Assembly (NCBI GenBank): GCA_963457665.1
Contig: OY735219.1
Location: 39,494,477 to 39,558,476, forward strand
DNA length: 64,000 nucleotides
Direction of reading: 5' to 3'
Source: Thysanoteuthis rhombus
Taxonomy: Eukaryota > Mollusca > Cephalopoda > Oegopsida > Thysanoteuthidae
Each line of letters starts with the position of its first letter. Positions within the stretch are counted from its first letter, which is position 1. This document shows, one piece after another, positions 4,771-63,718 of this stretch. A program made the position numbers and the translations under genes. The notes under the pieces are model-generated. The model searched no databases, was not told where the DNA came from, and saw only the letters and a program-made list of their open reading frames with translations.

Positions 4771-5010
4771 TAGGAACAGTCAACTAGAACTGTCACCAGA
4801 ACTGTCAACATGGGTTTCCTCAGTTTTTTTGGTTGGTCTGGCTGGCTATTTAACAAGTGTACAGACCTCACAAATGGAGCTAGAGGGCTAAATATTTCGA
4901 CGTTTGTTCATTATGTCGACCAAAAACGTTAGGTTTTTGGCGGTCTTTTGGAAATTCATCCCCAAAATGAATTTTTAGTGGGAGTTCAAGTTCTATTCAG
5001 GGTCTAACCA
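4771..5010 (+). repeat. Family R copy, 5' half
   Basis: It begins GGAACAGTCAACTAGAACTG, has the tandem AACTGTCA motif, GGGTTTCCTCAGTTTTTT, GGTTGGTCTGGCTGGCTAT and GGAGCTAGAGGGCTAAA, and ends near ATTTTTAGTGGGAGTTCAA. The 3' half is absent. Confidence 0.75.
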
Positions 5011-5690
5011 GAATATTTTTTTTGTTTCAAGATTGATTCATTATTTATTACTGTTTTGTGTCCATGAATTGGTTGGTTGCTTCTCAAGCAAAACTTGAAT
5101 GCTGTTAAATGTTTGAGATTGAAGAAAGAAATGGGGATATTTCTGCGTTGTGAGTTGTTCAGTAAGAGTGGGAAGGGATGTTTGTATCTGTGTCAAGTTT
5201 GGTCTGAAATGAAAAAGATCAATGTGAGGGTGTTTCATTCTGTGTCTTTGAGTATCAGATACAGATATAAAACATCCTCTGACACTTTTCAAGGTGTAAG
5301 ACATACTTTTCTCTAAAATTGGTTTCTGCTCACCTTCTAGATGTCATCTTTATCAACACATATATATAGTCTAGTGATTTTTTTTTAATTCTTAGATTCC
5401 TCGATTGAATATGTTAGTAGGGATATGAACTCAAAGGGGTTTTCTTGAATAACTGATATTGTTAAAGATGAATAATTAATATTTTCAAAGATATCAAGTT
5501 TTTTGACATGCAGTCCAAGATTAAAAAGACAACAGATTCAATAGACACATGAGTGAACATTCGATCGAACACAAAAACTGAGTCATATCTGTTGTTACTG
5601 ACCCCCAGCGTCAAATATGTTTTTGAGGTAACCCTGTATTCAAACTCAGTAGTTCGAAATAAGATCCGAGATATACACATGAATTTATAT
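5011..5690. other. Unassigned DNA between a family R copy and a microsatellite
   Basis: Overlapping open frames of about 80-90 codons occur on both strands at 5041-5316. Neither shows a recognisable domain or flanking splice signals. I see no support for a gene. Confidence 0.4.
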
Positions 5691-5692
5691 CG

Positions 5693-5693
5693 A

Positions 5694-5777
<84 letters not shown>

Positions 5778-5917
5778 CGTGTGTGTGTGCGTGTGTGTTT
5801 GTGTGTGTTATTTCGTGTGTATATCGATAGGTAAACATATATATGTCAATAAATGAACATGTATATATATATATATATATATATTGATATATATATGTAT
5901 TTATATATCGATATATA

Positions 5918-5966
<49 letters not shown>

Positions 5967-6117
5967 ACATGTATAATACATGTATGCATATATACATCGA
6001 TTTATGTACATATATAGACATATATATCTATAGATATTTATAGATACATATATATTAATACATATACATACGTACATATATGTATATGCACATATATATA
6101 TATCCATATATATACAT

Positions 6118-6153
<36 letters not shown>

Positions 6154-6165
6154 CGATTCATACAA

Positions 6166-6210
<45 letters not shown>

Positions 6211-6236
6211 TATATATCAATGCATATACATGTATA
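5693..6236. repeat. Compound microsatellite, (AT)n with (GT)n and (CA)n
   Basis: About 545 bp of alternating TA, TATG, GT and CA runs. A pure TA run starts at 5696, a GT run covers about 5754-5812, and CA runs lie near 6118-6130 and 6203-6211. Scattered ATCGAT words interrupt it. Long apparent reading frames rich in I, Y, H and T here are artefacts of the repeat. Confidence 0.95.
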
Positions 6237-6487
6237 TACGCCTGAAAAAGTCCAAAAAGCATGAATCTGTTCGTTCAGTGGATCCTTACTTCATCCTATA
6301 CACATATATGTAGATGAAAATGACAACTGGAAGGTGAAGAGAAAAACCCTTGAGGTACGTGTTACTCGCATCTCGAATTTTTTTTATCATTATTCCGTGG
6401 GCATAGTTCGATGCATTTTGATGGGGGCCAGCCATTTTTTTTTCAGAGAAATATATTTGCAGCGATTAGCAAAGGAAAATTTGCTGC

Positions 6488-6520
6488 ATATATACACATA
6501 TATATACACCTACAAATACA

Positions 6521-6553
<33 letters not shown>

Positions 6554-6618
6554 GTATACATACTCACACATATATATACATGTATACATACTCACACATA
6601 TATATACATGTATACTAA

Positions 6619-6660
<42 letters not shown>
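6488..6660. repeat. Compound microsatellite with a short tandem unit
   Basis: A CT run (about 6521-6535) passes into TA repeats. Then CATACTCACACATATATATA with TACATGTAT occurs in near-identical tandem copies of about 37 bp (6558, 6585 and a part copy at 6615), followed by a long CA run at about 6621-6650. Confidence 0.9.
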
Positions 6661-15985: not shown

Positions 15986-16207
15986 GCATTGGTTTGTGTG
16001 TGCGCTGTGGGTGCTTCCTTGTTCTTTTTTGTGTGAGTAGGTACATACATTAGAGGTAATAATGCAACTCGACGAAAGTTACAGGAAGTAACTGACTAAA
16101 TTAGTCTGGAGAAAGAATTTTCTAAGTTAGGTGATCAGCTTGTAAAATAGAATTGAAACTATGTAATGTGATCGAAATTTGGTTTTGGATTTATAAAAAC
16201 TTCTAAT

Positions 16208-16618
16208 CAAAAGCATCAATCTAAGTTTCTTCAGTTTTCAAGTTGGTGTGTTTGGTTTTGTTTATCACGCATATAGGCCGCATAAATTGAGCTAAAGGGC
16301 TAAAAAAAATTCAATCTTCAGTCCTTATCATGTCTAGAAGGAAACTTTACTTTTACCCTTGAGAATGAAGTCCTTGGATATTTTTTTAGTGGGGGTTCTA
16401 TTTGCAATGTAACTCAGTGCTAAAGTGATCTCTCAGTTTACGTTAGGCAGCATTCACAACTGTTTTTTTGAAAATGTTCAGTGATCACAGTCAAACAAAA
16501 GGAGAGACAATTAACTTGTTCATTGATCACCCTTTTTTTAAATTGATCACTCTCAACACGACATGCTGCCAAAAGACGTTGGTCACATCATTAAGTTACC
16601 GACCAGACCTGTTAATTT
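16208..16618 (+). repeat. Family R copy
   Basis: Near full length. It has AAGTTTCTTCAGTTTTCAAG, GAGCTAAAGGGCTAAA, TTTTTTTAGTGGGGGTTC, GCAGCATTCACA, CAGTGATCACAGTC, CATTGATCACCC, ACATGCTGCCAAAAGACGTT and ACCGACCAGACCTGT at the end. Open frames inside it have no domain. Confidence 0.8.
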
Positions 16619-17440: not shown

Positions 17441-17559
17441 AGTAATTCCAACACAAAATCACGTATTGCGACCGCTCTTCCGACAGATCTTTTATTTAAT
17501 ACGATTCTGTTTTTTCTTCAGAGGAAAAAATAAAGTAAGAACCGAAGAAATACATAATA

Positions 17560-18012
17560 AATCTGGTTTGTCACTCAATACAAACCGTCACGTGACCAGC
17601 GTCTCTTAGCAGCTTGTTGGTGATCAATTAAAAATTTGAAAAAAAATTATTTGGTTCTCTCTATTTTTTGCCTTTTGTTTGGCAACGATCACTAAAAAGT
17701 CTAAACATAAAATTGAAAAACAAAAACAAACAAACATGAGTGAATGCTGCCAAACACAAATCAAGAGATCATTTTTGCATAAACTTACATTGCAAATTGA
17801 AACTCAACAAAAACAATAGGGAGTATTCTAAAAACACATGTCTTAACTAGAGATATTAAGCAGTAAATATTTGAATTTTCAGCCTTTTAGCACCATTTAT
17901 GCGGTTTTCACCCGTGATATATACATAGCCAGTCAACCAGTCAGACCAACTTGAAAACTGAAAGAAACTCATGTTGACAGTTTTGATGACAGTTTTGTTT
18001 GACGGTTTCTAG
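17560..18012 (-). repeat. Family R copy
   Basis: Full-length unit on the minus strand. In plus orientation it opens with TCTGGTTTGTCACTCAATAC and the ACCGTCACGTGACC block. It contains TGATCAATTAAAAATTTGAA, GATCACTAAAAAGTC, GAATGCTGCC, TTACATTGCAAATTG and the CAGTCAACCAGTCAGACCAA microsatellite-like site. It closes with CATGTTGACAGTTTT and GACGGTTTCTAG. Confidence 0.85.
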
Positions 18013-19815: not shown

Positions 19816-19847
19816 TTTAAGACGTTGGCAGTGAGTGTTTAGAAACC

Positions 19848-20150
19848 GTCAACCAAAGCTGTCACTAAAACTGACAAAATAGGTTTCTTCAGTTTGTCTT
19901 GTAGGCTGGCTATGCACAAAGCTAGAAAGTTTCAACATTTACTTTTTATTATCTCTAAAAAGAATTTTTTCTAAAGCTTCCCTTCCAAAATAGGTTTTAG
20001 CAGAAGGAGTTAATTTGCAATGCAAATTTAAGCTAGATTGATCCCTCAGTTTGTGCCCGGTAGCATCACGCTTTTAAAAAAAATTCAGACATTTTTTTCA
20101 TCAACCCGAATACAACATACTTCAAAAAGGCATTGGTTTCTATTGTTTAG
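19848..20150 (+). repeat. Family R copy, internally shortened
   Basis: It opens with AGAAACCGTCAACCAAAGCT and has AGGTTTCTTCAGTTTGTCTT, a GGCTGGCTATG site, TAAGCTAGATTGATCCCTCAG and AAAATTCAGACATTTTTT. It then jumps to a 3' piece with GGCATTGGTTTCTATTG. The GATCACTGCCC part is missing. Confidence 0.75.
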
Positions 20151-24178: not shown

Positions 24179-24330
24179 CGGTAAGGCTGTGACTGGTGGC
24201 TGTCCATGTTGCTGTTACCATGAAGCGACCCTAATGATAGCTAAAAAAATGAAATTGATAAGTTGGTATATACCATGCCCTGGCGTACATCCCCTATCTC
24301 ATTTCTGATGCTTACATATTTGGATCAATC

Positions 24331-30000: not shown

Positions 30001-30004
30001 GGAA

Positions 30005-30412
30005 TAGGTTTTGTTAATCATTCAATAAAAATCCTTGTACAACCAAAGTCTTTTGGCAGCACACTGTGTTGGGGTTAATCAATGGATAAATTACTTCTCT
30101 CGCTTTTTGTTGTGCAGTGATCACTGAAAAAAGTCTGTATTTTCATAAAACAAAGGGATCAATTTAGCACAAACTTACTTTGTAAACTGAAGCCCCACTT
30201 TAAAAGAGTATTTGGGGGGGTGAATTTTGGAAAAACAAAAAAACTTCCCTTCTAGGCATAATGGATAAATGCTGAAAATTTCAGTCCTCTAGCCCCATTA
30301 GTGTGACCTGTTCCCATGATACAAACAGACATTGCCAGCCAGCTAGCAAGCAAGATCAACTTAGAAATGAAAGGAGCCTATGGTGACAGTTTTGGTTGAC
30401 GTTTTCTAATAA
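30005..30412 (-). repeat. Family R copy
   Basis: Minus-strand unit. In plus orientation it has AGGTTTTGTTAATCATTCAA, CAAAGTCTTTTGGCAGCACA, TTACTTCTCTCGCTTTTTGT, CAGTGATCACTGAAAAAAGT, TTTAGCACAAACTTACTTTG, the CCAGCCAGCTAGCAAGCAAG site, and a GACGTTTTCTAAT end. Confidence 0.85.
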
Positions 30413-35532: not shown

Positions 35533-35985
35533 CATGAGAAACTGTCAACCAATAACGTCAACATAAGTTTCTTCAGTTTTTTAGTTGGTCTCACTGGCTG
35601 GTTACGTGTGTATGTATAACATGTACAGACTGCATCAACAGGACTAGAGGGCTGAAATTTTCAACATTTACTCTTTACTATGTCCACAATAAACAATTTT
35701 TCATTTCTGTAAAATCTACCCCTTAAATAGATTTTTAGTAGGGACTTCAATTTGTAACATAAGTTTGAGCCTGATTGGTCCCCTAGTTTGTGTCCAGCAG
35801 CATTCACATTTGTTTTTTGACAATTCAGACGTTTTAGTGATCACTGCCCAAAAAATGTCAGAAGAAGTAACTTATTGATTGATCACCGTTTCTTCCAATT
35901 ACTATAGTAGATCACCCCCAACAAAGCATGCTTCAAAGAGAGGTTAGTCATGTGACGGTTTCTATCAGTGTCTGATTCTTATTTT
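35533..35985 (+). repeat. Family R copy, near full length
   Basis: Starts AGAAACTGTCAACCAATAAC. Has CATAAGTTTCTTCAGTTTTT, GACTGCATCAACAGGACTAG, ACTCTTTACTATGTCC, TAGTAGGGACTTCAATTTGT, GTCCAGCAGCATTCACATTT, AGTGATCACTGCCC, TGATTGATCACCGTTTC and AAGCATGCTTCAAAGAGAGG, and ends in a GACGGTTTCTATCAGTGTC variant. Confidence 0.9.
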
Positions 35986-36704
35986 ATTTTTTAGTAGTTT
36001 TAAACAATGTTTCAACTGGTTAATTCTCCAGCCGTCTTTGACTGTATTTTTCATCTAATGCTTGAACTCTTTAGAATGATAATTGAATTATTCCTTTCCA
36101 TAAGCTCAAGTTAGAAAAGGTTAAAATCTTTAATGAAATTCCTGCTCCGTTGAAAGCACTGGAATCTGAAAGTTCCTGCAAGTAAAGAAACTAACCATTA
36201 CATCATTATAATCATTGCATTTTCCTTTTTTAAAGATAGACTTAAGCTTAACCTGTTTATCTGAGCGTTCACACTCATTTATACATATATTCATACGATA
36301 AGGAATATGACTCGTAGCCTTAGAAAAAAAAATAACCGCAGACGTCAGATAATCTCTTTGCTTTACTTTTTAAGTACAGCGAGGACATGTTATCGGAGGA
36401 ATAGAATACTAATGCTCAGGTCGGTCATTAAAGAAATTCCCGTCCCAGAGTGAAAAAAAAATTTACTGATAAATGTTTTCCTGGATGTAATTTGCTTTTC
36501 TGCATAAAAAAAAAATCATCATTAAAGTTAAGGACATTATTACTACGACTGATTTCATGAGAAATGTCTAGATCATATATTTTTACAGCCAAATGCCCTC
36601 TTTTACTCTTGCATTTTGAAATTTTGAAATCTCGCAGCTGGACTAAGGCTCCTCCTGAAAGTATTCACTTCATAGCAATCTGCCAACATTGGTTCTTTTT
36701 AGAA

Positions 36705-37045
36705 TCAGTCAACAAAAACTGTCATGGAAATTATCAATGTAGGTTTCTTCAATTTTTAAGCTTGTTTGGCTTGCTGGCTATATATGAATGTATCATTTAT
36801 ACAGACTGCTCTAATCAAGCTTGGTGGCTGAAAATTTAAATATTTACTACTATTATGGTTGAAAAAAACAACTTTTAAAAAAATTCCCCCATAAAATAAG
36901 TTCTCAGTGGGAGATGGGCAATTTTCAATATAAGTGCATGCTAAATTGGTCCCTTAGTTTCTGTCCGGCAACATTCATGCTTGTTTTTAGAAATTTCAGT
37001 CTTTTTTAGGGATCAATGCTCAGCAAAACATGAAGGAAGTGGCTG
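36705..37045 (+). repeat. Family R copy, truncated by or fused to the next copy
   Basis: GAATCAGTCAACAAAAACTG, TAGGTTTCTTCAATTTTTAA, GGTGGCTGAAAATTTAAATA, GTTCTCAGTGGGAGATGGGC and TTAGGGATCAATGCTCAGC. After ACATGAAGGAAGTGG it switches directly to the GGCTGGCTATGTATGTA site of a second copy. Confidence 0.85.
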
Positions 37046-37400
37046 GCTATGTATGTATTTATGTATCATTTATGCAGACCTCACCAATGGAGCTAAAGGG
37101 CTAAAAATCTAAATGTTACACCCATTATGTCTAAAAAAAACAACTTTTTTTTATGTTTAAATTATCCCCCTTGTTTTTAATGGGGGGTTCAATTTACAAT
37201 ATGTGTATACTAAATTGGTCTCTTAGATTGTGTCGAGCAATGTTTCAGCTTGTTTTTAGAAAATTCAGGCTATTTTAGGGATTACAGCCCTACGAAACAT
37301 TAGAGGAGTGATTTATTAATTAATCAACCCCAACATGACATGCTACCAAAAAATATTGGTCACATGACAGTACTTATTGAGTGACTAACCAGACCTGTGA
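37046..37400 (+). repeat. Family R copy lacking its first 60 bp
   Basis: Begins at the GGCTATGTATGTATTTATGT site and continues GGAGCTAAAGGGCTAAAAAT, GGTCTCTTAGATTGTGTCGA, AATCAACCCCAACATGACAT, GCTACCAAAAAATATTGGTC and GAGTGACTAACCAGACCTGT. Confidence 0.88.
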
Positions 37401-37742
37401 TTAATTGTCCATTTATTCTGATTATCTGCAATGGAAGAGTTGTTAACAAAGGAATCCATCTGTTGTCATTGCTATGATTTATTCTACAATGTTCTTTCAA
37501 GATTCTGAGAAAATTGCGCTATTATTCAGAAATTCCACAAAACTTGAAGAACACTGAAAAGACATTGATTATCCCCAGTTATCATTCATTATGAAATGAG
37601 TTTTTTTTATCTTATAATTATTTTTACACTAATTAAATTTGTATCATTGGAAATACCCAATCAGCATTCTTTACAATAAAGTAAATGGTACCATAGTGAT
37701 CACCCAAGGTTATCATTGTTATAAATTAGGCTTTGATATAAG

Positions 37743-38150
37743 GGAACATCAACCAAAACTGTCTGTTTTTTTCAGTTTTTGAGCTAGTCTGGCTGTCTGG
37801 TAGACTGTCTGTCTGGTAGGCTAGCTGTCAATTTATGTATGTATCACATGTACAGGCCACATCAATGGAGTTCTTCGATTTTTGACCCCCCCCAGGTTTT
37901 TATGGGGGGTCAAATTACAATGTACATTCATACTAAATTGATCCCTAGTTTGCGTCCAGCAGTGTTTATGTTAGTTTTTTGAAAAATTAGACTTTTTAGT
38001 AACCCAACAAAAGCGAAAGAAGTAATTTATCCTTCGATCACTCCTTTTTCCGATTTTTCAATTGAGCTACCCCAACATAGCATGCCGCCAAAAGATGTTG
38101 GTCATGTAACGATTTCTAATGAGTGACTAACCAGACCCGTTTCATTTTAT
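37743..38150 (+). repeat. Family R copy with an expanded CTGTCTGG site
   Basis: AACATCAACCAAAACTGTCT, then GGCTGTCTGGTAGACTGTCT with GTCTGGTAGGC as a local expansion of the usual GGCTGGCTAT. Then ATCAATGGAGTTC, CCCTAGTTTGCGTCCAGCAG, AGCATGCCGCCAAAAGATGT and GAGTGACTAACCAGACCCGT. Confidence 0.88.
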
Positions 38151-38754
38151 ACTTTTTCTTATACTAATTACATTGTTATCGCTTGAAATACCTAATTCAA
38201 ATTCTTCACAAAACATCAAATAGTACCATAATGATCAGCCCAGGTTATCATTGTTATAAATTAGGCTTCGGTGTTATTTCTTTGTATTAAAAGTTCACAG
38301 TCGGGTTTTATTTGATTTTTTTGTTTTAATGAAATCGTAGGATTGTTTCTTAATCGATGTGTTAGTATGAATGGTTTCATGATGCGCCCAGTTAGTTCAG
38401 TGTGATTATTGGCTTTTTTGATGCCATTACAGAACTGAAAAACTTAAAACTGTAGAATTTGATGTGTTTGAAGTCTGTGTGTGTTCGTTTCATGCTGTAA
38501 TTGCCATCAGAATTGGTTGATTACTTTTTTGTGCTAATCTACTACTTATCTCTTTGGCCTGTTCATTCTGAAGCATAGCTAAAATCCAATAAACTGTGAA
38601 ATGGCTTTTGAGAACTAGATATATAGTAAAGCCTAGTTTAGGGAACTAGATATATAATGATGTCTCCATTAGCTGATATTGAGCATACAAAAAACATAGA
38701 AACTTAGAACTAGGTATACACCTTACCCTCATTTCAATCCCTTCCAGTATTTAG

Positions 38755-38885
38755 GTGAGGGAAGTGACTTATTCATTGATCAGCTCTTTTTAAAAATTTT
38801 TTAATTGATCAGCACCAACACAGAATGTTTCTAAAAAATATTATTCACAAGATGGTTTCTATTGAGTAACTAATCAGACCTGTTC
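38755..38885 (+). repeat. Family R fragment, 3' end
   Basis: GTGACTTATTCATTGATCAG, AATTGATCAGCACCAACACA, GATGGTTTCTATTGAGTAAC and TAATCAGACCTGT: the last 130 bp of the unit only. Confidence 0.8.
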
Positions 38886-38889
38886 TCAA

Positions 38890-39465
38890 ATATTATTTAG
38901 CAGTTGTTAATTGCCTTTAAACAATTTCCAGATATATTTCGATTTCTATGAGATGATTTTTTATGAAAAAAACTACGAATCTATTTCAGTAGAAGTCTAT
39001 AATCTCAAATTGAGGGTTGGAGGTATTTTCATCAGCAAAATTATTACCTTCAGATGGGAAAATCCATTGATACTGATAGAAAAAAAAACACAGAGCCCAT
39101 TATAAAGAATAGTTTAACTTAGCATCAGACCATTGATACTGAGGGATCCAATAAGGCATGAGCCCATTAACAATGGCCTGCAAGATTAATTTGCTGATTA
39201 TGGCTGAGCAACTGGCATTCTGACCCGATTTCTTTTCTCTTATGATTTATCAATTTAGCATAGTTTGGTATCAGATTTTCTATAATGGGAGAGCCATTGA
39301 GGATTGAACAAAAGCCAGCAAGATTAACTTGCTGATCACTGCAATATACAATGCATTTTGATCCGTAATTAAAAAAAAAAATGATTTACTGGGTAATGCA
39401 AAAAAAAAAAATTCATTGTTATATTTTAATTTTCCTGAGATTTCTTTTTAGAAAAAAAATACTAA
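38890..39465. other. Unassigned AT-rich DNA
   Basis: A 64-codon open frame (38911-39105) has no motif. CCATTGATACTGA occurs twice near 39063 and 39130, and CAGCAAGATTAACTTGCTGA recalls GCAAGATTAATTTGCTGA about 130 bp earlier, a weak local duplication. Confidence 0.4.
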
Positions 39466-39469
39466 ATTC

Positions 39470-39690
39470 ATTTTTTGTCAGGCAGTGATCCCTAAAAAAA
39501 TCTGAATCTCCAAAAGACAAGCGTGAATGCTGCAGGACAAAAACTAAGGAACCAATTTTGTATAAACATACATTGCAAATTGATCCCCACCCCCACTAAA
39601 AACCTATTTGAAAAAAAAAAAAAAATTTTTTCTTGATATATTAAGGAGTAAATGCTTAAAATTTCAGCTTTCTGGCTTCGTATAATTCAT
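39470..39690 (-). repeat. Family R copy, partial
   Basis: In plus orientation: GTCAGGCAGTGATCCCTAAA, GCGTGAATGCTGCAGGACAA, CTAAGGAACCAATTTTGTAT, ACATACATTGCAAATTGATC, CCCACTAAAAACCTATTTG and AAAATTTCAGCTTTCTGGC. The 3' end and the 5' 60 bp are absent. Confidence 0.8.
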
Positions 39691-40436: not shown

Positions 40437-40605
40437 AGTGAACCCAAACTATCACATGAACTATCAGCATAGGTTTCTCCAGTTTTTGAGTTGGTCTGAC
40501 TGCCTAGCTATATATGTGTATATCATGCATTCAAGCTACAGCAATGGAACTAGAGAGCTGAAAATTTAAACATTTACACCTTATTATGTCTAAAAAAAAT
40601 GAAAA
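40437..40605 (+). repeat. Family R copy, 5' part
   Basis: CATAGGTTTCTCCAGTTTTT, GAGTTGGTCTGACTGCCTAG, CAGCAATGGAACTAGAGAGC and ACACCTTATTATGTCTAAAA. The remainder is lost. Confidence 0.8.
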
Positions 40606-44115: not shown

Positions 44116-44562
44116 AAGGTCTGGTTAGTCACACAATAGAAACTTTCATGCAACCAATGTCTTTTGGCCGCATATTATGTTGAGAGTGATCAATTAATAA
44201 ATTCAAAAAAGGAATGATTAATGAATAAATTACTTCTCTCAGCTTTCGTTGGGCGACAACCACAGAAAAAAGTCTGAATTTAAAAAAAACAAGGAACAAA
44301 TTCAGCAAATTCAACCACCCCAATTACAAATCTTACTTTGGAGAGATTTTAAGAAACAAAAAAATTGCTTTATTTAGACATAAAAAGGAGTAGATATTCA
44401 AATGTTTAACCCTATTGATCCCTTGGTGTGGCATGTATGCAAAATACATATACTTCCATCCATCCATTCCATACATACATCCATAGCCAGCCACACCAAA
44501 TTAAAAGCCGAAGAAACTTATGTTGACTGTTTTGGAGACAGTTGTGATCGACAGTTCCTAAT
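44116..44562 (-). repeat. Family R copy, full length
   Basis: In plus orientation it opens AGGTCTGGTTAGTCACACAA. It has GCAACCAATGTCTTTTGGCC, GTGATCAATTAATAAATTC, TTACTTCTCTCAGCTTTCGT and CATCCATCCATTCCATACAT at the microsatellite-like site, and closes TGTTGACTGTTTTGGAGACA then CGACAGTTCCTAATC. Confidence 0.9.
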
Positions 44563-44905: not shown

Positions 44906-44909
44906 GTTA

Positions 44910-45332
44910 AAAACCATCAACAAAACTGTCAGAGAAGGTTTCTTTAGTTTTGAAGTTGGTTCTGCTAGCTGGCTAGATGTGTACAGCTTGCATTAAATAA
45001 AAATGTCAACATTTACTTCTTATTATGTCAAGAAAAATCATTTTTTTTGTTTTTTCAACCCCCCGCCCCAAAGAAACTGGGCTTTTAATGATGGTTTCAA
45101 TTTGTAATGTAAATATATGCTAAATTGATCACTAACTGCATTCACACTTCTTTTTTGAAAATTCGGACCTTTCAGTGATCACTGTCCAGCGAAAGGCGAG
45201 AGAAGTAACTCAATCATTGATCACCCCTTTTTTTACCCAGTTTTTTAAATTGATCACCCCCAACAGGGCATGCTTCCAAAAGACATTGGTCACAAAATGG
45301 TTTCTATTGAATGACTAACAAGATCCTTTGTA
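44910..45332 (+). repeat. Family R copy, full length
   Basis: AAAAACCATCAACAAAACTG, GGTTTCTTTAGTTTTGAAGT, TCTGCTAGCTGGCTAGATGT, ACTTCTTATTATGTCA, CAGTGATCACTGTCCAGCGA, CATTGATCACCCCTTTTTTT, GGGCATGCTTCCAAAAGACA and GAATGACTAACAAGATCC. Confidence 0.9.
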
Positions 45333-45610: not shown

Positions 45611-45832
45611 GATATAAATATGAAATTATTAATCAAAATAATATGAATACTAGAAAAAAAAACTGATTAAAAATGGCTGCCAAAAAACAGAAAGCTTCTT
45701 GATTATCATTTCTCATTAAATTGGGTTAATCATTTTACTCTACTAAACGGATCTGATTTTTTCCAGATATATGTCAATATGTATAATGAAAAATGTAATT
45801 ATTCATCATATAATCTAAAAGTGATTAAGATG

Positions 45833-46275
45833 GATCTGGTTAATCTCTCAAAAGAAACCGTCACATGACCAATGTCTTTAGATAGCATGTTATGTTGGGG
45901 ATGATCAATTAAAAATTGGAAAAATGGGTGATCAATGAATAAGTTACTCATGGATTTTGTTTGGCAGTAATCTCTAAAATATAGTCTGAATCTTAAAAAA
46001 ACCAGCATGATAGCAGCAGGACACAAACTAAGGGACCAATTTAGCATAAACTTACATTGCAAATGGAACTTCCCCCACTGAAAACCTATTGGGAGGAGAT
46101 TTTCAAAATACCTAATAAGCTTTTTTTCTTGGCATAATGAGTAAATGTTTAAATTTTCATCTCTCCCCGCTCCTTTGATATGGTCTATATGTGTGATACA
46201 TATGTAGCCAGCCTGACAGACAGACAGACCAACTTGGAAATTGTTGATGATGACGTTTTGGTTGATGGTTCCTGA
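45833..46275 (-). repeat. Family R copy, full length
   Basis: In plus orientation: ATCTGGTTAATCTCTCAAAA, GAAACCGTCACATGACCAAT, GATCAATTAAAAATTGGAAA, ATTTAGCATAAACTTACATT, GACAGACAGACAGACCAACT at the expandable site, and TTTTGGTTGATGGTTCCTGA at the end. Confidence 0.9.
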
Positions 46276-46910: not shown

Positions 46911-46914
46911 ATCA

Positions 46915-47232
46915 GAAAGTGTCACCAAAACTGTTGACATAGGTTTTCTTCAGTTTTCAAGTTAGTCTGGCTGGTTGGATATCTATGTATGTTTCATATA
47001 GACAGGCTTCACCGAGCTGGAAATAGGAGGCTCAAAATTTGAACATTCACTCCTTATTATGTCAACGTTCCTTTCCTATTTTTTACCCCCCCTCCCTTTC
47101 AGTGGTGGGTTCACTTTTTCATTTATCACTCTGTTTTCCAAGTTTTTAACTGATTGCCCTTAATACAGCAAGCAGCTGAAAGAGGTTTGGTACATGACTG
47201 TCTCTGCTGAGTGACAAGCTAGACCCGTTGCT
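46915..47232 (+). repeat. Family R copy with internal deletion
   Basis: AGAAAGTGTCACCAAAACTG, CATAGGTTTTCTTCAGTTTT, CACTCCTTATTATGTCAACG, TTTCAGTGGTGGGTTCACTT, then directly ATTTATCACTCTGTTTTCC, AGCAAGCAGCTGAAAGAGG and GAGTGACAAGCTAGACCCGT. The GTCCAGCAGCATTC part is missing. Confidence 0.85.
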
Positions 47233-48369: not shown

Positions 48370-48892
48370 AAGCAAAGAATCACTCAAGGATGGCAAGCTC
48401 AACTTTCAAAAACCAGACGATCCCAATAATCTTAAAAAGAAGAGTATACAACCAATGCATTCTCCCGATAGTCACTTATGGAGCCAAAACATGGAACTTA
48501 ACCAAGAGACAGACTTGCAAACTGAAAAGCATGCAATGCGCTCATGAGAGAATCATGCTCAACATCACATGGAGGGATCACAAGACAGCACAGTATATCA
48601 GGAAGAAAACGGGAGTCCAAGATATAATAGAATCTATTAAAAACTTAAATGGCAATGGGCAGGCCATGTTGCAAGAATTGCAGACAACTGATGGACATCA
48701 TGACTCACAACATGGATCCCAAGAGATCACATGCGAAACCGAGGCTGGTAGAATACAAGATGGAGAGATGAACTAGATAAATTCAGGAAATACTGGCTCC
48801 ACGACACCCATGATAGAGAATTGTGGCAAATCCTGGGGAAGGTCTATGTCCAATGATGGACTTTAAAAGACTGATGATAATAATGATGATGA
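48370..48892 (+). mobile_element. LINE family A copy 11, 3' fragment
   Basis: An open frame of 128 codons from 48390: STFKNQTIPIILKRRVYNQ, CILPIVTYGAKTWNLTKRQ, KSMQCAHERIMLNITWRDHK, TAQYIRKKTGVQDIIES and EITCETEAGRIQDGEMN, with one frameshift near KNLNG. The tail is CTTTAAAAGACTGATGATAA then TGATGATGA. It is the cleanest 3' copy in the window, so probably among the younger insertions. Confidence 0.92.
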
Positions 48893-49007: not shown

Positions 49008-49462
49008 ACCAAAACTGTCACTGAGACTATCTGCATAGGTTTCTTCAGTTTTCAAGTCGGTCTGGCTGGTTGACAGGCTATGTATGCGTGTACCAGGTGT
49101 AAAGGCCGTGCTAATTAAGCTAGAGGACTGAAAATTCAAATATTTACTCCTTATTATATCAACAAAAATTTTGTCTTTTCTTTTTATGAAATTCCTTCCT
49201 AAATGGGTTTTTACTGAAGGAGGAAGGTTCAACTCATAATGTAAGTTTCTGGTTAATTTTGTCCAGCAGCATTCACATTAGTTTTTTGAAACTTTGGGCT
49301 TTTTCTAGTGATCACTGTCCAACTAAATGCAAGAATACCAACTCATTCATTGATAACCCCTTTATCCAATTTTTCAAATTGATCACCCTTAACTCAGCAT
49401 GCCTCCAGAAGATATTGGTCATGTGATGGTTTCTATTGAGTGATTAACTAAAGCTGTCTTTT
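49008..49462 (+). repeat. Family R copy, full length
   Basis: GGAACCAAAACTGTCACTGA, CATAGGTTTCTTCAGTTTTC, GAGGACTGAAAATTCAAATA, ACTCCTTATTATATCAACAA, TGGTTAATTTTGTCCAGCAG, GTGATCACTGTCC, CATGCCTCCAGAAGATATTG and GAGTGATTAACTAAAGCTGT. Confidence 0.9.
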
Positions 49463-49827
49463 TTTTATAATTTTGATTTCTTATCTTAGTTTTGTGGCTT
49501 TTTTTTCTTTTCTCTTTATTTTTCAATATACTTTATTTATTTCGGCTTTTGTTCGTTACTTTTCTCTCCTTTTTAAGTTCTAGGTTTTCCTCTTCCTCCC
49601 ATTAAAACGTAAACCTGATCACCTGGAGGACTTGTTGGTTGATCATCGTTCTGATGATGTCTGCGGCTGTGTGGAGATTTGCACCAGTGATCTCTGCGTG
49701 AATGTTTTTAAAAGAAGGAGGGACGTTGCACTGAGATGATAGCACTTTCTTGGCTTCCAAGTTCATCTTCTATCTTCTGTGATGAGATGTCACGACAGGT
49801 GGCCTTTTTGGCGCGATTCTTTTGCTA

Positions 49828-50575
49828 GAAACCGTCAACCAAAACTGTCAACAGAATTCTGAGTTTGTCCGGCTGACTGTCGGCTATCTATGTATGGCTA
49901 TCTTTACAAAGACATATGATGTAGTAATTTTATGGCTAAAAGTGGCTAGATTGAAAAAAAACAACGTATGTTTAATTGTCAGGTGACTACATTTCATTTC
50001 CTCTGTATTAACGTTAATTTTGATTTTTAGAGTAACCAATGAAATTATCTGAGGGCCACATTTTTAATGTTCGTGTGTGAATTTTTTTGACTTATATAAT
50101 TTAAACAAGGTTAAAAACCTAGCCACTTTTAGCCATTTAAAATTAGCAATATGAAAATAGCCTATCTCGAAATGGTTACATGATGTGTCTTTACAAAGGT
50201 AGCAGTATGCATATATGTATATATCATGTATACAGGTATACCATTAGATCTAGAGATGCTAAAAATTAAAACATTTACTCCTTACTAAGTCTAGAGAGAA
50301 AATGTTACTTTTTTGTTTTCCAAAAATTCACCTCTTGAACAGATTTTTGGTTTGGATTCAATATACATTGTAAGTATGTACAATTTTGATCCTTTTGTTC
50401 CTACCTGCTCGAAAATTCTGACATTTTTAGTGATCACTGCCTGAACAAAAGGCCAGAGAAGTAACTCGTCTATTGATCACCCTTTTCTTTTTAATTGATT
50501 GCCAACAACGGAGCATGCTGCCGAAAACGTCAGTCATGACAGTTTCCATTGAGTGACTAACCAGACCTGTCTATA
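49828..50575 (+). repeat. Family R copy split by a MITE
   Basis: The 5' part at 49828-49896 (AGAAACCGTCAACCAAAACT, GGCTATCTATGTATG) continues at 50204-50575 (TATGCATATATGTATATATC, TTACTCCTTACTAAGTC, GTGATCACTGCC, CATGCTGCCGAAAACGTCAG, GAGTGACTAACCAGACCTGT). The interruption falls exactly at the GGCTATGTATGTAT site. Confidence 0.9.
49897..50203. mobile_element. MITE-like non-autonomous DNA transposon, 307 bp
   Basis: Terminal inverted repeats: the left end GCTATCTTTACAAAGACATA matches the reverse complement of the right end, GCTACCTTTGTAAAGACACA, at 17 of 20 positions, and similarity continues through an AT-x-ATG block. A second, perfect 18-bp inverted pair, ATGGCTAAAAGTGGCTAG (49932-49949) and its complement (50119-50136), lies inside. 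GTATG flanks both sides (49892-49896, and 50205-50209 after one extra A) as a possible target-site duplication. It has no coding capacity. It sits inside a family R copy and is therefore younger than that copy. Confidence 0.75.
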
Positions 50576-50777
50576 TTGAAATGTAACATGGTCCATCTAG
50601 TCATGCTGTCAGCTGACTATTACCATTCAGCGATTCTGCATTTAACCATTAGAGACCAGTCGCTCCAACTCACTGAATCATATTTCCTTGACAGCCGAAC
50701 AAAAGCAATTCCTCAAACAAAGAATTCAGAATGAAATGGCCTTTCAGTTTTATCTAGGCTTCTGTTGGACAAATAGT

Positions 50778-50925
50778 TAGAAACTGTCAACCGAAACTGC
50801 CATCGTAGGTGTCTTATATTTTTATGTTGCTCTATCTAGCTGGCTATCTAGGTGTAATGTGTACATACCACACCAAACGAGCTACGGGGATGGAAATTTA
50901 AACATTTACTCTTTATTATGTCTTT
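50778..50925 (+). repeat. Family R fragment, 5' third
   Basis: AGAAACTGTCAACCGAAACT, CTAGCTGGCTATCTAGGTGT, CGAGCTACGGGGATGGAAAT and ACTCTTTATTATGTCT. It is followed without spacer by the start of another copy. Confidence 0.85.
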
Positions 50926-51365
50926 GAAATACTGTCGACCAAAACTGTCAACACTGGCTTCTTTAGTTTTCTGGTTGGTCTGTTTGGCTGGCTATGTATG
51001 TATTACATGTACAGGCTGCACCAATGGGGCTAAAGGGCTGAAAATTTGAACTTGTAGTCATATCATGTCCGAAAAAAATGTTTTTTTGTTTTCCCAACAT
51101 TCCCCACTAAATAGATTTTCAGTGGAGAAGGGGTGAATTTGCAATGTAAGCTAATGCTGAATCAGTCATTTTGTCTGTTTCCAGCAGCATTCACTCTTGG
51201 CTTTTTGAAAGTTAAGACTTTTTTAGAGATCACTGCCCAAACAAAAGGCAAGAGAAATAACTTATTCATCAACCACCCCTTTTTCCGAATTTTTAATTGA
51301 TCACTCCAATGCAGCCAAAAGAGGTTGATCATATGAATGCATCTGTTGAGTGACTAATCAGACCT
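50926..51365 (+). repeat. Family R copy, full length
   Basis: GAAATACTGTCGACCAAAAC, TGGCTTCTTTAGTTTTCTGG, TTGGCTGGCTATGTATGTAT, GGGGCTAAAGGGCTGAAAAT, CCAGCAGCATTCACTCTTGG, GATCACTGCCCAAACAAAAG and GAGTGACTAATCAGACCTGT. Confidence 0.9.
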
Positions 51366-51369
51366 GTTT

Positions 51370-52587: not shown

Positions 52588-52961
52588 AACCACTGGTTAG
52601 TCAGTCAAGAGAAACTGACATGTGACCAATGTCTTTCATTACCTGCCATGTTGTGGTGATCTATTACAGAATTGGAATGAAGGGTGACCATTGAAAAAGT
52701 TACTTCTCCCGCCTCTTGTTGGACAGTGATATGAAAGTCAGAAATTTCAAAAAAGAAGCACGAATGCTTCAAGGCACTAACCAAGTGACCAATCTAGCAT
52801 AAACTTACATTGCAAATTGACCCCCCCCAAATATAACCAATTGAGGGGGAAATTTTCAAACATTTTTTGCAGACATAGTAAGGTATAATTGCTTGGAATT
52901 TCAGCACTGTGACTCCATCAATGCAACCTGCATTCATGAAACATAAAGGAGAGCCATGCAA

Positions 52962-52995
<34 letters not shown>

Positions 52996-53052
52996 GAACC
53001 AATTTGAAAACTGAAGAAAATTATGTTGACATTTTCGGTGACAGTTCTGTTT
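52588..53052 (-). repeat. Family R copy with (CCAG)n expansion
   Basis: In plus orientation: ACCACTGGTTAGTCAGTCAA, GAAACTGACATGTGACCAAT, CTTCTCCCGCCTCTTGTTGG and ATAAACTTACATTGCAAATT. A (CCAG)n run follows at about 52962-52995, replacing the single CCAGCCAG site of other copies. The end is TATGTTGACATTTTCGGTGA. Confidence 0.9.
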
Positions 53053-53137: not shown

Positions 53138-53562
53138 GAATTTGTCAATCAAAACTTAGACCAAATCTATCGACACAGGTTTCTCCAGTTTTTGAGTTGA
53201 ACCAGTTGGCTGGCTGTGTGTGTTTGTTTGGCAATACAGGCTGCACCAGTGAAACTAAAATCTCTATAATATCTGGAAAGAACATTTTTTTTTTAAATTC
53301 TCCCCAAATATGTTTTTGTTGTGGGGGAGGGTCAATGTGCAATGCAAGTTTTTGCTAAATTGGATTGTAGTTAATGTCCTGCAGCATTCATGCTTATTTT
53401 TGAAAATTCAGACTTTTTTTAATGACCATTTCCCAGCAAAAAGTGAACTGTAACTTATTTATTGATCACCCATTTTAAATTGATCATACCTAATATGGCC
53501 TGTTGCTGCCAAGAGACATTGGTTACATGATGATTTCTATTGAGTGACTAACAAAACCTGCC
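53138..53562 (+). repeat. Family R copy, full length
   Basis: AGAATTTGTCAATCAAAACT, CACAGGTTTCTCCAGTTTTT, GTTGGCTGGCTGTGTGTGTT, TCCTGCAGCATTCATGCTTA, TATTGATCACCCATTTTAAA, GCTGCCAAGAGACATTGGTT and GAGTGACTAACAAAACCTG. It lies about 85 bp from the oppositely oriented copy at 52588-53052. Confidence 0.9.
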
Positions 53563-57160: not shown

Positions 57161-57164
57161 AACA

Positions 57165-57560
57165 TTAATCAAAACTGTCAACATGGGTTTTTAACAGTTT
57201 TCAAGTTGGTCTGGCTGGCTACGTATGTGTGATGCTACATCAATGTAGCTACAGGGCTGAAAAGCTAAATATGTGCTTATAAAGCCATGAAAAAACGTTT
57301 TTTTCTTTGTTTTTTGAAAATTCTTCCTCTACATAGGATATTAAAGGGGAGATTCAGTTTGCAATATAACTTGATGTTAAACTGACTGTTGGTGTCCACT
57401 GCTTCAAAAAAAAAATTCAGACTTATTCTAATAATCACTGTCCAGCGAAAGGTAGGATAAGTAATTTATTCATTTTTTTAATTGATCACCGGCAACCCGG
57501 CATACTGCCAAAAGATTTTGTCACATGGCAGTTTCCATTGAGTGACTAACGAGACCTGTT
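57165..57560 (+). repeat. Family R copy, near full length
   Basis: CATTAATCAAAACTGTCAAC, CAGTTTTCAAGTTGGTCTGG, GTAGCTACAGGGCTGAAAAG, CACTGTCCAGCGAAAGG, ATTGATCACCGGCAACCCGG, GGCAGTTTCCATTGAGTGAC and TAACGAGACCTGT. Confidence 0.88.
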
Positions 57561-57656
57561 TTTATAGTTTCTTTCTCAATTTCCTTTTTCTAGAAAAATC
57601 ACTGTGGTGATTCATTCTCTTTTCATCCCATGAATTGAGTTAAATACTTGAATAAA

Positions 57657-57962
57657 CTGGTCAGGTTAGTCATCCAAAAGAAACCATCTCAAAACCAACA
57701 TCTTTAAACTTTCACCACAAACTAACCTTCCACTAAAAACCTTCCAGGGGGATATTTAAAAAAAAACAAACCAAAAATGTTTTTCCAGATGTTATAAGAA
57801 CCAAAAGCTTAAATTTTCAGCCCTCTAGTTTCATTAGTGCAGCCCATAATGTGCAACAGATACACAGATAGATTGTCAGCCAACCAGCCTGTCTAAGTCA
57901 TTTGAAAACTGAAAAAACCTGTATTGCAGTTTTGGGTGACATTATTGATTAACATTTATAAT
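57657..57962 (-). repeat. Family R copy with internal deletion
   Basis: In plus orientation: GGTCAGGTTAGTCATCCAAA, GAAACCATCTCAAAACCAAC, then a jump to ACAAACTAACCTTCCACTAA, AAAACCTTCCAGGGGGATAT, GTCAGCCAACCAGCCTGTCT and TGGGTGACATTATTGATTA. Confidence 0.8.
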
Positions 57963-61067: not shown

Positions 61068-61079
61068 TTATACTTGAGA

Positions 61080-61720
61080 ATTTTTCAGCGCCAAACTCAT
61101 ACGTATAAATATAGTCTAGATAGCTTCACGGCTTTGAATACTAAACATCAAGAAACTTTTTCAAAAGTTTTTGGGTCACTTCAGTCACTTATCTGTCAAT
61201 GCAATATATGTCATTTTCTGCAGTGTTTTTTCCTCTATTTTACATATACTTTGTTGTTCTGTCATTTTATATAGGGGTGCATTGTATTGTAGTATCATTT
61301 TAAACTACACATTTTTTTTTTGAAACAGGGCTTACTTACATATGTTATACAAAAAACGTATTTTACGATGGGGGATCAGTAAATATAACAACAGACATGA
61401 CTCATTGTTCATGTCATTTCTGTTGAATGTTCCCCCATGTGAATACTAAATCCATTTTGTTGGTTTCAATTTCAGACTCTATGCAAACCAGCTTATGATA
61501 TCATCTTTAAGAATACTAATAACACAGAAAAACTTCTTCGAGTTGATTCTCTACCAATGTATTCAACCAAAATATTCAACAATTTTTTCTACTAACCTTA
61601 AAGTTAATTTTCCTATGTTGTGTACCATGAAGCTTCCATTAATTGTTTTTTTTACTTTCAGTTATCAAATAAATATCCTTGTATACATGGTTGAAACAAA
61701 ACAAAGCCACTCTCTAGTGG
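61080..61720. other. Unassigned DNA
   Basis: No gene motif. A 111-codon frame at 61495-61830 has no domain and runs through an (AT)n site. Confidence 0.35.
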
Positions 61721-61725
61721 GTAGT

Positions 61726-61745
61726 AATATATATATATATATATG
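61726..61745. repeat. (AT)10 microsatellite
   Basis: A pure TA run. GAAAGGAGATTATTGGCTCA follows, and GAACCAATAATTTC appears inverted about 130 bp further on (ATTGGCTCATTACA versus TGTAATGAACCAAT): a short imperfect inverted repeat. Confidence 0.85.
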
Positions 61746-62132
61746 GAAAGGAGATTATTGGCTCATTACAATGTGGACCACTCTGTGTCTCTGTGTCCCT
61801 TGGCTAAGATTATTCAAATGTGTCTGTTAGTCAAGAAATCTTAATTTGAAACTGAGCAGTCTACACTGTAATGAACCAATAATTTCATTGTAATATTAGT
61901 TTAACTGTTCTACTTTCAAGTATTAGGTACCTTGAAATAAAGAAATTGCAAGATATTCATGAATTTTTAACATATTTGCTATTCTCCCTATATATCTATA
62001 CATCTATATATATATAAGAACTCAATGACAAAATATACAGGTAATGCATTAATTAGATCTTAGTTTAAAAAAAAGTGCTCAATACCATCAGTTATAAAAT
62101 GAGTAATGTTTTCTTTGAATGGTTCATTGCAG

Positions 62133-62220
62133 ATTGTACACTCTGTTTCACTTGAAAAAGATTTTCAAATGAAAAGTGAGCCAGAATGTGCAATCTGTAA
62201 TGAAGCATTGAAAAAAACCT
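62133..62220 (+). other. Weak exon candidate with a C-x-x-C motif
   Basis: Directly after a TTGAATGGTTCATTGCAG acceptor-like site the frame reads IVHSVSLEKDFQMKSEPE then CAICNEALKKTLV. The first pair of a RING/zinc-ribbon-like C-x-x-C is followed by charged residues. A long (AT)n begins at 62237, so no partner exon or donor can be placed. It could be a real small exon or chance. Confidence 0.2.
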
Positions 62221-62231
62221 TAGTCTTTTTC

Positions 62232-62236
<5 letters not shown>

Positions 62237-62275
<39 letters not shown>
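62237..62275. repeat. (AT)n microsatellite
   Basis: About 19 TA units. Confidence 0.95.
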
Positions 62276-62279
<4 letters not shown>

Positions 62280-62625
62280 TAAAATATATAAAATGTAAGT
62301 GATTTTAGTCATTTCAAAAGTCAGTTTTAGCTACTGATAACAAAACATACTTAGAAACGCTGATTTCTTCCCTTATTAAACGCACACACCCACTTTATAG
62401 ACAAATCAAAGGCCTGTGTATTCACTTTGTTGGTAAATTAGAGGCCTGCAACCTCTTATGAAAATGTTAGGTATCAATATTTCCTAATTGATTTTTCACC
62501 TATATCTTTTACAAAATCCAGCGGAGTTTCAAACAGGTGAAAGAGGTGCCTGAACATTTTTTGTTCTCTTTTTTTACTCCTCAGTTTCTTTGGAGAAGTC
62601 CTCTTCATCATCTGGTTGAGCTTGC

Positions 62626-62985
62626 TCAGATTCTATTGACTCTAACATGCCCCCATCTCAATCTTGCATAGGTTGGCACAGTCACATCCTGTATCGGTGC
62701 ATAGTTAGTTGATGTATGTTCCACAAGGGTGACCAACACTTCTGTGTTCTTGGCATGATGTCCTGAGGAGGGCAATGCTGATGAGTTCTCCTTTCGCTCT
62801 CCAGCTCTGTCCAGCAAAATGCTGGTGCTTCTCCCTGATGACTTTTGATGTTGCAGGAAGAAGTATTGGTTTGTCCTGGAGGACATTTTCAACAAGCTTC
62901 TTCATTATGGCTTCACCATTAACTGTGGAATTGAGGTCAGGTGAATTTCGTGGCCATCTGCCAAATCCATTATTTCAGAAAAAGC
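62626..62985 (-). pseudogene. Tc1/mariner-superfamily transposase relic
   Basis: The minus strand reads FGRWPRNSPDLNSTVNGEAI near 62975-62915 and then MKKLVENVLQDKP. W-P-x-NSPDLN-x-x-(E/V)N is the signature around the third catalytic residue of Tc1/mariner transposases, and the following helix matches the position of the usual K-x-x-V block. The rest (RAKGELIS, TSCQEHRSVG) has no assigned match. The usual E after DLNP-x is changed (TVN). The first two catalytic Asp blocks were not found. Decayed. Confidence 0.55.
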
Positions 62986-63117
62986 ACTGCATGCATAATT
63001 GTCAATCCTGTCAGGTTACATCAAGGGCAATTGTGACCTTCCTTGTTTCAAAATGGAGATTACTCTATAGAGTGGTCAGCGCTGATGGTGAATTTGAAGT
63101 CAAAGAAGTAGACCAGA

Positions 63118-63180
63118 ATAACCCTAACCTTAACCCTAAAAATATCAACCCTCACCCTAACAATACTAATACTAAAAAAC
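63118..63180. repeat. Interstitial telomere-like repeat patch
   Basis: AACCCTAACCTTAACCCTAA, then CAACCCTCACCCTAAC and degenerate ACTAATACTAA: three to five imperfect CCCTAA units within 60 bp, far short of a telomere. Confidence 0.6.
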
Positions 63181-63390
63181 CTTAATACTGCAGCTGGTGG
63201 TAGCTATTTTGAATCAGGAAAGTTGATATTAGCCGATTCAAGAATGTGCACTCTTTTTGGAGCCAAACATTCAGCTGCAAAAACAAGCAGGTTTTATTTT
63301 GAGACACCCTTTAAAGCAAGTTCAGTTCACCTGAAACTGTGATTTTATATCCAGCAATTTAACGTAGTTCTATGTTGACTGAAACAGAAG

Positions 63391-63718
63391 ACAGGTCTGG
63401 TTAGTCACTCAATAGAAACTGTCACATGACTAACCTCTTTTGGCAGAATACAGTGTTTGAGGTGACCAATTAAAAAAAATGGAAGAAGGGATGATCAATG
63501 CACAAGTTTCTTTTCAGTAGGATCAGTTTAGCATGAACCTTAATTGGAAATTGAACCCTAACAAAAAACTTACCGGGGAGGATTTTTTTTTTCTAAAAAG
63601 AAGTTTTTCCTAGACATTATGAGTAAATGTTGATATGGCCTATACATGTGAAGTTAGCTGGATCAGCTTAAAGACTGAAGAAACCTATTTTGATAGTTTT
63701 GGTTGTCGGTTTCTAATA
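63391..63718 (-). repeat. Family R copy, internally shortened
   Basis: In plus orientation it opens ACAGGTCTGGTTAGTCACTC then AATAGAAACTGTCACATGAC, the best-preserved 3' terminus in the window. It has GACCAATTAAAAAAAATGGA, TCAGTTTAGCATGAACC and CTAGACATTATGAGTAAATG, and ends ACCTATTTTGATAGTTTTGG then CGGTTTCTAATA. The GATCACTGCCC part is deleted. Confidence 0.88.

Follow-up and report, generated by a model that had tools for sequence, protein, structure and literature searches.

The closest described systems to family R, a non-coding dispersed repeat best read as running from TAGAAACCGTCA to GACCTGT over about 450 bp, are the non-autonomous Helitron2/Helentron elements, HINE/DINE-1 and the FoHeli elements of Fusarium. 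Family R occurs throughout a 64,000-base stretch of the Thysanoteuthis rhombus genome (C22:39494477-39558476; hereafter the window), and the genome searched amounts to 2.73 Gb in 514 contigs. In the accessible parts of the sources, the features to which R is likened below are described jointly for Helitron2/Helentron and HINE/DINE-1 (PMC4067079, PMC7492417, PMC5148889). Could R, then, have been spread by rolling-circle transposition? We consider it probable that R is a non-coding element mobilised in this way by the Rep/helicase of a Helitron2/Helentron-type partner.

FoHeli/Helitron2 of Fusarium resembles R in its asymmetric terminal inverted repeat, the 3' copy of which lies about 20-40 bp before the terminus. 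FoHeli3-5 end in CTCCTGT, where R ends in GACCTGT; they have no 3' hairpin but retain a degenerate one on the 5' side. FoHeli1/2 share with R a preference for TNAT ahead of the insertion point, the next base being T in the legend and A in the text. However, FoHeli1/2 have 3' hairpins and end in ATTTT, unlike R, and FoHeli3-5 are described without target preference. The FoHelis are moreover autonomous fungal elements of 5-11 kb, whereas R is 450 bp long, non-coding and old, and the two are likened by anatomy, not by sequence homology. For FoHeli1, joined-end products of the polymerase chain reaction have been reported (PMC5148889, accessible part for all these statements).

The HINE/DINE-1 elements, as portrayed in the accessible part of PMC4067079, are like R non-coding, with subterminal inverted repeats of 12-15 bp, a microsatellite, a T-rich or TT target that is not modified and a very high copy number; DINE-1 also has a complementary internal repeat near the 5' end, with a possible counterpart in R. 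However, HINEs carry a stem-loop or palindrome close to their 3' terminus, and in mites the subterminal repeat is offset by 38-60 bp on the 3' side, whereas R has no stem-loop, an offset of 22 nucleotides (nt) and a palindrome internal to its 3' repeat. Molluscan examples are the Cg_HINE/pearl elements of bivalves, which resemble R with their 11-12-bp subterminal inverted repeat, 4-nt GTCY microsatellite in the left flank and, possibly, 7-12-bp complementary inverted repeat, and to which the tandem array at one R locus (L085) is likened; Cg_HINEs contain satellite-like central repeats and a 3' palindrome, whereas the middle of R is usually unique (PMC7492417, PMC5139131, accessible parts). Helraiser, a Helitron1, shares with R the lack of a target duplication and precise head-to-tail junctions, but Helitron1 begins with TC, has a hairpin followed by a terminal CTRR and integrates between A and T, none of which holds for R. 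Removal of the Helraiser hairpin led to more read-through and truncation, and circles still formed, with precise head-to-tail joints (PMC4778049, accessible part).

Anatomy of family R

A preliminary description, made from the letters of the window alone, had reported about 28 copies in both orientations between positions 4771 and 63718, filling about a seventh of the window and sharing words in a fixed order. Family R is confirmed as a dispersed repeat in the window, and these figures hold closely. A profile built from 30 genome copies (threshold E<=1e-3) matched 30 stretches, which chain into 26 copies in both orientations, run from 4,788 to 63,716 and cover 8,733 of the 64,000 bases (13.6%); over all sequence examined, the reversed-sequence control gave no match, versus 218 real ones. 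Iterated profile searches recover the family as well. The ten listed words keep their order and, with both strands summed, are at least 3.7 times as frequent as in block-shuffled versions of the window (mean of five). For example, GGCTGGCTATGTATGT occurs 18 times with up to three mismatches versus 0.2 in the shuffles, and ATGCTGCCAAAAGACATTGG 8 times versus 0; counted per strand, GTTTCTTCAG and ACTCCTTATTATGTC are clear on the plus strand only (9 versus 4.2 and 5 versus 2.2 on the minus strand). Thirteen copies keep both ends, six only the 5' end, five only the 3' end and two neither. Internal deletions that spare both ends are common, three in the window removing about 80 bp or more. One frame of at least 110 amino acids (158 amino acids) was noticed on an R copy in the stop-to-stop frame list, which shows no equivalent frame on any other copy; the copies were not scanned for protein families. 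The earlier remark that there is no clear tRNA head also stands, neither a tRNA gene nor an Rfam family at gathering score having been found in the window.

Profiled over 94 5' and 96 3' ends, the borders are sharp, with TAGAAACCGTCA as the boundary word of the 5' terminus and TGACGGTTTCTATTGAGTGACTAACCAGACCTGT as that of the 3' terminus. In the CpG-restored consensus (first 60 versus last 70 bases), the 12-bp TAGAAACCGTCA recurs inverted 22 nt inside the 3' end; when the two end segments are shuffled, 8 of 2000 shuffles reach an inverted match of at least 10 bp, the longest being 13. The repeat had been announced as an 11-mer lying about 20 bp inside the 3' end, which is right, and can be sharpened to 12 bp and, if the element ends in GACCTGT, to 22 nt. 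It is blurred because of CpG decay: the left CCG shows CG in 9, TG in 27, CA in 7 and another state in 10 of the 53 copies readable there (CpG states were read at pattern matches in 53, 30 and 29 of the 75 both-ended copies). Genome-wide, the CpG-restored right end CACGTGACGGTTTCTATTGAGTGACTAACCAGACCTGT has 565 matches within one mismatch (61 exact) and the left 42-mer has 519 (45 exact), with none for the controls in either case.

A second AAACTGTCAAC box comes next after the 5' inverted repeat, and AAACCGTCA boxes number two to three at the 5' end and one, inverted, inside the 3' end. Near the 5' end also stands a GGCT/TATG microsatellite, whose span, measurable by pattern in 20 of the 75 both-ended copies, ranges from 20 to 49 nt, nearly always in 4-nt steps from 25. 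The same region holds a complementary pair, AGAAACC...GGTTTCT, of 7 bp with a 22-nt loop; it has z -1.62, 10 of 200 shuffles fold equally well, and it is not the best fold in a longer segment. On the other side of the element, the 10-bp palindrome GTCACGTGAC abuts the 3' inverted repeat internally.

Target sites, junctions and abundance

Flank comparison in 48 unchained copies with both ends and flanks revealed no target-site duplication (P=0.13 and 0.19). The sensitivity of the test was gauged with implanted duplications carrying 15 or 22% mutations: at P<0.05 it recovered those of 4 bp in 6 of 8 trials, those of 5 bp in 8 of 8 (P<=0.02 in all eight), those of 6 bp in 7 of 8 and those of 8, 10 and 14 bp in 8 of 8 each. 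Duplications of 5 bp or more are not detectable in R, and those of 4 bp or less are compatible with the test. The best fixed offset (2 bp, -5/+4; z-like 3.6) is the top of thousands of uncorrected combinations and is taken as noise. Of the ends and target-site duplications that the preliminary description had wished to see defined, the ends are now fixed, while duplications were not detected in these copies.

Insertions of R favour TNAT^T. Among the 97 eligible 5' ends, 64 could be anchored on a TAGAAAC-like start; the four bases before it are T (.56), T (.55), A (.66) and T (.84), with AT in 36 of the 64 (background 0.10) and TNAT in 19 (background 0.030). On the 3' side, counted from CCTG, T makes up 67% of the first six bases, among them the element's own final T, and 50% of the twelve that follow, after which it falls near background.

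Copies of R are also joined tail to head, the two halves relevant to the joint being the tail word TAACCAGACCTGT and the head word TAGAAACCGTCAACC. The pattern CCAGACCTG-N(0-25)-TTAGAAAC occurs 27+29 times in the genome versus 2+4 for the control; at these 56 places a gap of 0 is seen seven times, of 1 four times (all with the same extra C) and of 2 three times, with a mean of 1.8 for gaps 3-25 (P=0.003 for gap 0). The exact junction, GACCTGT directly followed by TAGAAACC, is found 17+29 = 46 times with up to three mismatches and never in the controls, and a head-to-head 28-mer equal in length to the junction word is absent from the genome. At the gap-0 junction the base before the element belongs to GT, not to the preferred AT; the junction fits joined ends better than a second insertion. 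In two tandem pairs of the window the inner copy is truncated at its 3' side (50777-51369, and 36700-37398 with the joint at the microsatellite), and further same-orientation pairs occur at L064, L069 and L091.

At L085 (128-697), five tandem units of about 120 bp, each combining the initial ~86 bp of R with ~38 bp that finish in a run of T, form a satellite-like array of the 5' module. Direct duplications of the flanks were seen in 3 of 53 copies versus 0.5 expected from other pairings, and inverted ones in 0 versus 0.67, which is not counted as proof. In the window, a direct duplication of about 130 bp, 80% identical, stands at the ends of the copy at 37742 (37578-37741 and 38142-38270), and upstream of it lies a partial further unit; this copy either sits in a tandem array or had its flank copied along with it.

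Family R is old and very abundant. The 16-mer GGCTGGCTATGTATGT occurs 3628+3680 times in the genome versus 1+1 for the reversed control, and twice exactly in the window, where 22 copies span the region; through this window ratio the counts suggest about 80,000 copies, an estimate with a broad margin. In 88.4 kb of loci baited by an unrelated domain (two ten-kb stretches overlapping two of the three-kb loci) there are 5 R matches, corresponding to about 150,000 copies, and the copy number is roughly of the order of 10^5. R covers 1.2% and 3.9% of the unrelated-domain loci and 7.0% of the flanks of R-baited loci, in a sample made up of baited loci and the R-rich window (13.6% R), not drawn at random from the genome. 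It should be noted that loci L001-L008 and L059-L118 were baited by a 5'-module word, and that the kept ends were counted in the window alone. Out of 4004 candidates, the 40 that were scored share 80-84% identity with the window consensus. The non-CpG Kimura distance to the consensus is 0.166 for 10 window copies, 0.163 for 20 copies of C1 and 0.137 for 25 of the best-scoring copies, all with both ends and at least 380 bp. With an octopus calibration in which a Kimura distance of 0.2 equals 56 million years (PMC13282606, accessible part), a distance of 0.165 would correspond to about 46 million years if the octopus rate is carried across species.

A rolling-circle reading and its alternatives

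The lopsided ends and the end-to-end tandem copies suggest rolling-circle copying with borrowed enzymes. R probably works like the non-autonomous Helitron2/Helentron elements, HINE/DINE-1 and FoHeli, and is probably, though membership is unproven, one of the wider group. It shares with HINE/DINE-1 the subterminal inverted repeats of at least 11 bp (here 12 bp, offset by 22 nt), the variable left microsatellite and, down to the 5-bp limit of the duplication test, insertion without target duplication at a TT/T-rich target, and with Helitron2 the asymmetric terminal inverted repeat. The preliminary description had seen hints of a DNA-transposon derivative with asymmetric ends, an idea that the asymmetric inverted ends, the undetectable duplications and the exact tail-to-head junctions support and extend. 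Its statement that R could not be assigned to any class was too cautious, because the feature set is that described for non-autonomous Helitron2/Helentron. R is nevertheless not filed as a HINE, because the HINE 3' stem-loop was tested for and not found.

From this anatomy we infer recognition by Rep, nicks, circles and a partner. The AAACCGTCA boxes, both the 5' ones and the one inside the 3' end, would be recognised by Rep, which would nick before TAGAAACC; a single strand would be displaced up to GACCTGT, closed into a circle and integrated at TNAT^T with no duplication of the target. Occasional failure to stop would yield tail-to-head multimers, truncated inner copies and captured flank. 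The missing 3' hairpin would itself predict multimers and flank duplications.

Several observations weigh against rolling-circle spread. No stable 3' stem-loop was found in three versions of the right end (z 0.03, 0.13 and -0.15 against shuffles), nor a fold in the last 30 nt (z 0.66), and in place of the stem-loop or palindrome that follows the 3' subterminal repeat in HINE/DINE-1, R has GTCACGTGAC internal to that repeat. In favour of rolling-circle spread, the genome does contain 78 matches to the Helitron_like_N (Rep) domain, and in 7 of these the matched stretch is free of in-frame stops. But no R end was found around 20 of the matches, of which 18 were covered for 1.5 kb to either side and 2 within ten-kb stretches, a range in which more distant ends would be missed; in L053, L057 and L119 the R copies lie separate from Rep. 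A longer coding element sharing the termini of R, which the preliminary description had proposed to look for, was not found in the sample examined. No empty site appeared among 12 joined flanks searched genome-wide (best 40 candidates scored), the rows being 24 own flanks and, in the other 28, the LINE-like flank of L077. When 74 joined flanks were compared with the sequences examined, five rows spanned the joint (an own flank, an AT-rich one, the 37742 duplication and two of 60-66 bp), none of them a clear empty site. In addition, the tail-to-head junctions could stem from insertion into the T-rich end or TT of another copy, and a head-to-head joint, as a perfect palindrome, may be unstable. 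Five inverted neighbour pairs within 150 bp exist beside the same-orientation ones; in one of them (L003, 1486-1664) two R copies lie head to head with zero gap by profile match.

Might R be a cut-and-paste element instead? A miniature inverted-repeat transposable element (MITE) with a 2-4-bp duplication (e.g. TT), bound at the AAACCGTCA boxes by a DDE transposase, could have acquired a 22-bp piece that became fixed at the right end and made the 3' repeat internal. The inverted repeats at both ends, the both-ended internal-deletion derivatives and the absence of any noted coding capacity suit such an element, and so short a duplication is compatible with the data, given that 4-bp implants were missed in some trials. 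However, the 3' inverted repeat is not terminal, the two flanks do not share a short word (TNAT precedes the element, T-rich sequence follows it), and exact tail-to-head junctions are unusual for cut-and-paste, all of which makes this origin unlikely. Less likely again is that R represents solo pieces of a long known transposon with common termini. R is old and fragmentary, and other repeats adjoin some copies (window 29867-29994, L063), but the two sharp recurring ends speak against a fragment, as do the 35 left-only and 27 right-only copies, which show no common continuation beyond other R copies, satellite-like R arrays, one near-identical pair of neighbouring loci (L004/L005) and a few short matches such as L095/L097 (103 bp), L022/window (136 bp) and L027/L069 (80 bp).

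Most improbable of all is a retroposon resembling a short interspersed element (SINE), with a T-rich 3' terminus and mobilised by a long interspersed element (LINE), even though the length, the abundance, the T-rich 3' flank of variable length and the abundant LINE-like fragments in the window (classed by eye) would agree with it. Target-site duplications of 5-14 bp were mostly detectable and none was seen, the tRNA gene and Rfam searches of the window were negative, the inverted repeats stand at both ends, and the incomplete window copies (6 with the 5' end versus 5 with the 3' end) do not show the 5'-truncation bias of retroposons. Four standard classes were accordingly set aside: a SINE proper for the lack of a tRNA/5S/7SL head and of a target duplication; an ordinary MITE with terminal inverted repeats for the 3' repeat lying 22 nt internally and the lack of a duplication of at least 5 bp; a canonical Helitron1 for the ends TAGAAACC and GACCTGT in place of 5' TC and 3' CTRR, the missing 3' hairpin and the lack of A^T insertion; and a simple satellite for the dispersal of the copies in both orientations.

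Window copies, neighbouring sequences and significance

Table 1. Copies of family R in the window and parts of one copy. Copy rows rest on profile matches, and the last column gives positions along the R profile.
Feature	Position	Strand	Profile positions
R copy, 3' part missing	4788..4992	+	7-219
R copy, both ends	16195..16613	+	4-453
R copy, both ends	17559..18010	-	4-450
5' terminal inverted repeat TAGAAACCGTCA of copy 17559-18010	18000..18011	-	
3' inverted repeat TGACGGTTTGTA of copy 17559-18010, inside 3' end	17579..17590	-	
10-bp palindrome GTCACGTGAC in copy 17559-18010, just internal to 3' inverted repeat	17587..17596	-	
R copy	19839..20096	+	2-302
R copy, both ends	30003..30409	-	2-453
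R copy	35536..35967	+	3-434
R copy, 3'-truncated, fused to copy 37040..37398	36700..37041	+	3-336
R copy, head-to-tail with copy 36700..37041, joint at microsatellite	37040..37398	+	58-452
R copy, both ends, flanked by ~130-bp direct duplication	37742..38141	+	5-453
R copy	38753..38885	+	323-454
R copy	39459..39680	-	106-337
R copy	40454..40601	+	15-162
R copy	44117..44548	-	15-450
R copy, both ends; 3' flank recurs upstream of start	44908..45328	+	3-452
R copy, both ends	45832..46274	-	3-450
R copy, both ends, internal deletion	46912..47229	+	219/337
R copy, both ends	49012..49458	+	6-453
R copy	49826..49896	+	3-85
R copy	50209..50571	+	69-453
R copy, 3'-truncated, complete copy directly after	50777..50929	+	2-158
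R copy, both ends, second of tandem pair with 50777..50929	50928..51369	+	5-454
R copy, both ends	52593..53046	-	7-446
R copy	53155..53561	+	10-452
R copy, both ends	57161..57561	+	8-454
R copy, both ends, internal deletion	57654..57944	-	233/403
R copy, both ends, internal deletion	63390..63716	-	247/329

Other repeats share the window with R. A second dispersed family (11124-11577, 24102-24718, 31099-31580, 34490-34978, 48403-48890, 51824-52275) consists of apparent LINE 3' ends with a GAT-rich tail, the frames looking endonuclease/reverse transcriptase-like by eye; it is a candidate for the RTE class. The frame at 14665-15243 has, also by eye, the look of a LINE endonuclease domain. Two-copy dispersed repeats, 75-77% identical, lie at 14724-15023/32374-32673 and 10525-10788/33917-34180. 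Another repeat, GGTTCTATCC...TTTGTTTGTTCCAGCACTCCTGGCCAT-like with a TTTG microsatellite, is present at 29867-29994 of the window and in L063 (1-170), L020 (543-676), L021 (574-690, 2171-2303), L131 (734-829) and L009 (3047-3125); at two independent places, in the window and in L063, it begins no more than about 10 bp from where an R copy has its 3' end.

The molluscan hemocyanin beta-sandwich family has 52 matches in the genome. The hemocyanin functional unit of L133 scores 709 and 665 bits against domains 4 and 5 of PDB 6r83 and at most 377 against the other six. The structure is presumably a decapodiform (cuttlefish) hemocyanin, and we take the doubled unit d to be typical of decapodiforms. 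Together with some 48 large contigs, compared with n~46 in decapodiforms, this points to a squid- or cuttlefish-like host as the most likely one. Nine functional-unit matches that have the same score and frame length occupy C25:56607734-56625492 of G000 at intervals of about 2.18 kb; they reflect either the tandem multiplication of a single unit or an error of assembly.

No description of R was found among the open papers listed for Helentron/HINE/DINE-1 in molluscs and cephalopods, one of which is on bivalves and none of which, as far as titles show, deals with such a repeat apart from PMC4067079, Repbase, Dfam and subscription papers lying outside the comparison; literature matches to its terminal words were single 12-mers only, in papers unrelated by title. 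R may be among the ancient coleoid repeat families of PMC8967140. In Sepia, uncharacterised repeats account for 39.65% of the genome (PMC13218726, accessible part). Families like R can be missed because the majority of Helitron programs are built on Helitron1 motifs and pass over Helitron2 (PMC5148889, accessible part). As a tentative and rather doubtful extension, R might be the prototype for a large part of the decapodiform repeats filed as "unclassified", namely hairpin-less rolling-circle elements that stop poorly and so leave tail-to-head multimers, captured flank and dispersed 5'-module arrays as in L085.

With copies of the order of 10^5, one to several per cent of the sampled sequence and base-exact ends, R makes part of the dark repeat fraction nameable, datable and maskable. 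It would place rolling-circle-type elements among the large contributors in this lineage, and it provides a natural experiment on whether the lack of a 3' hairpin goes with poor termination.

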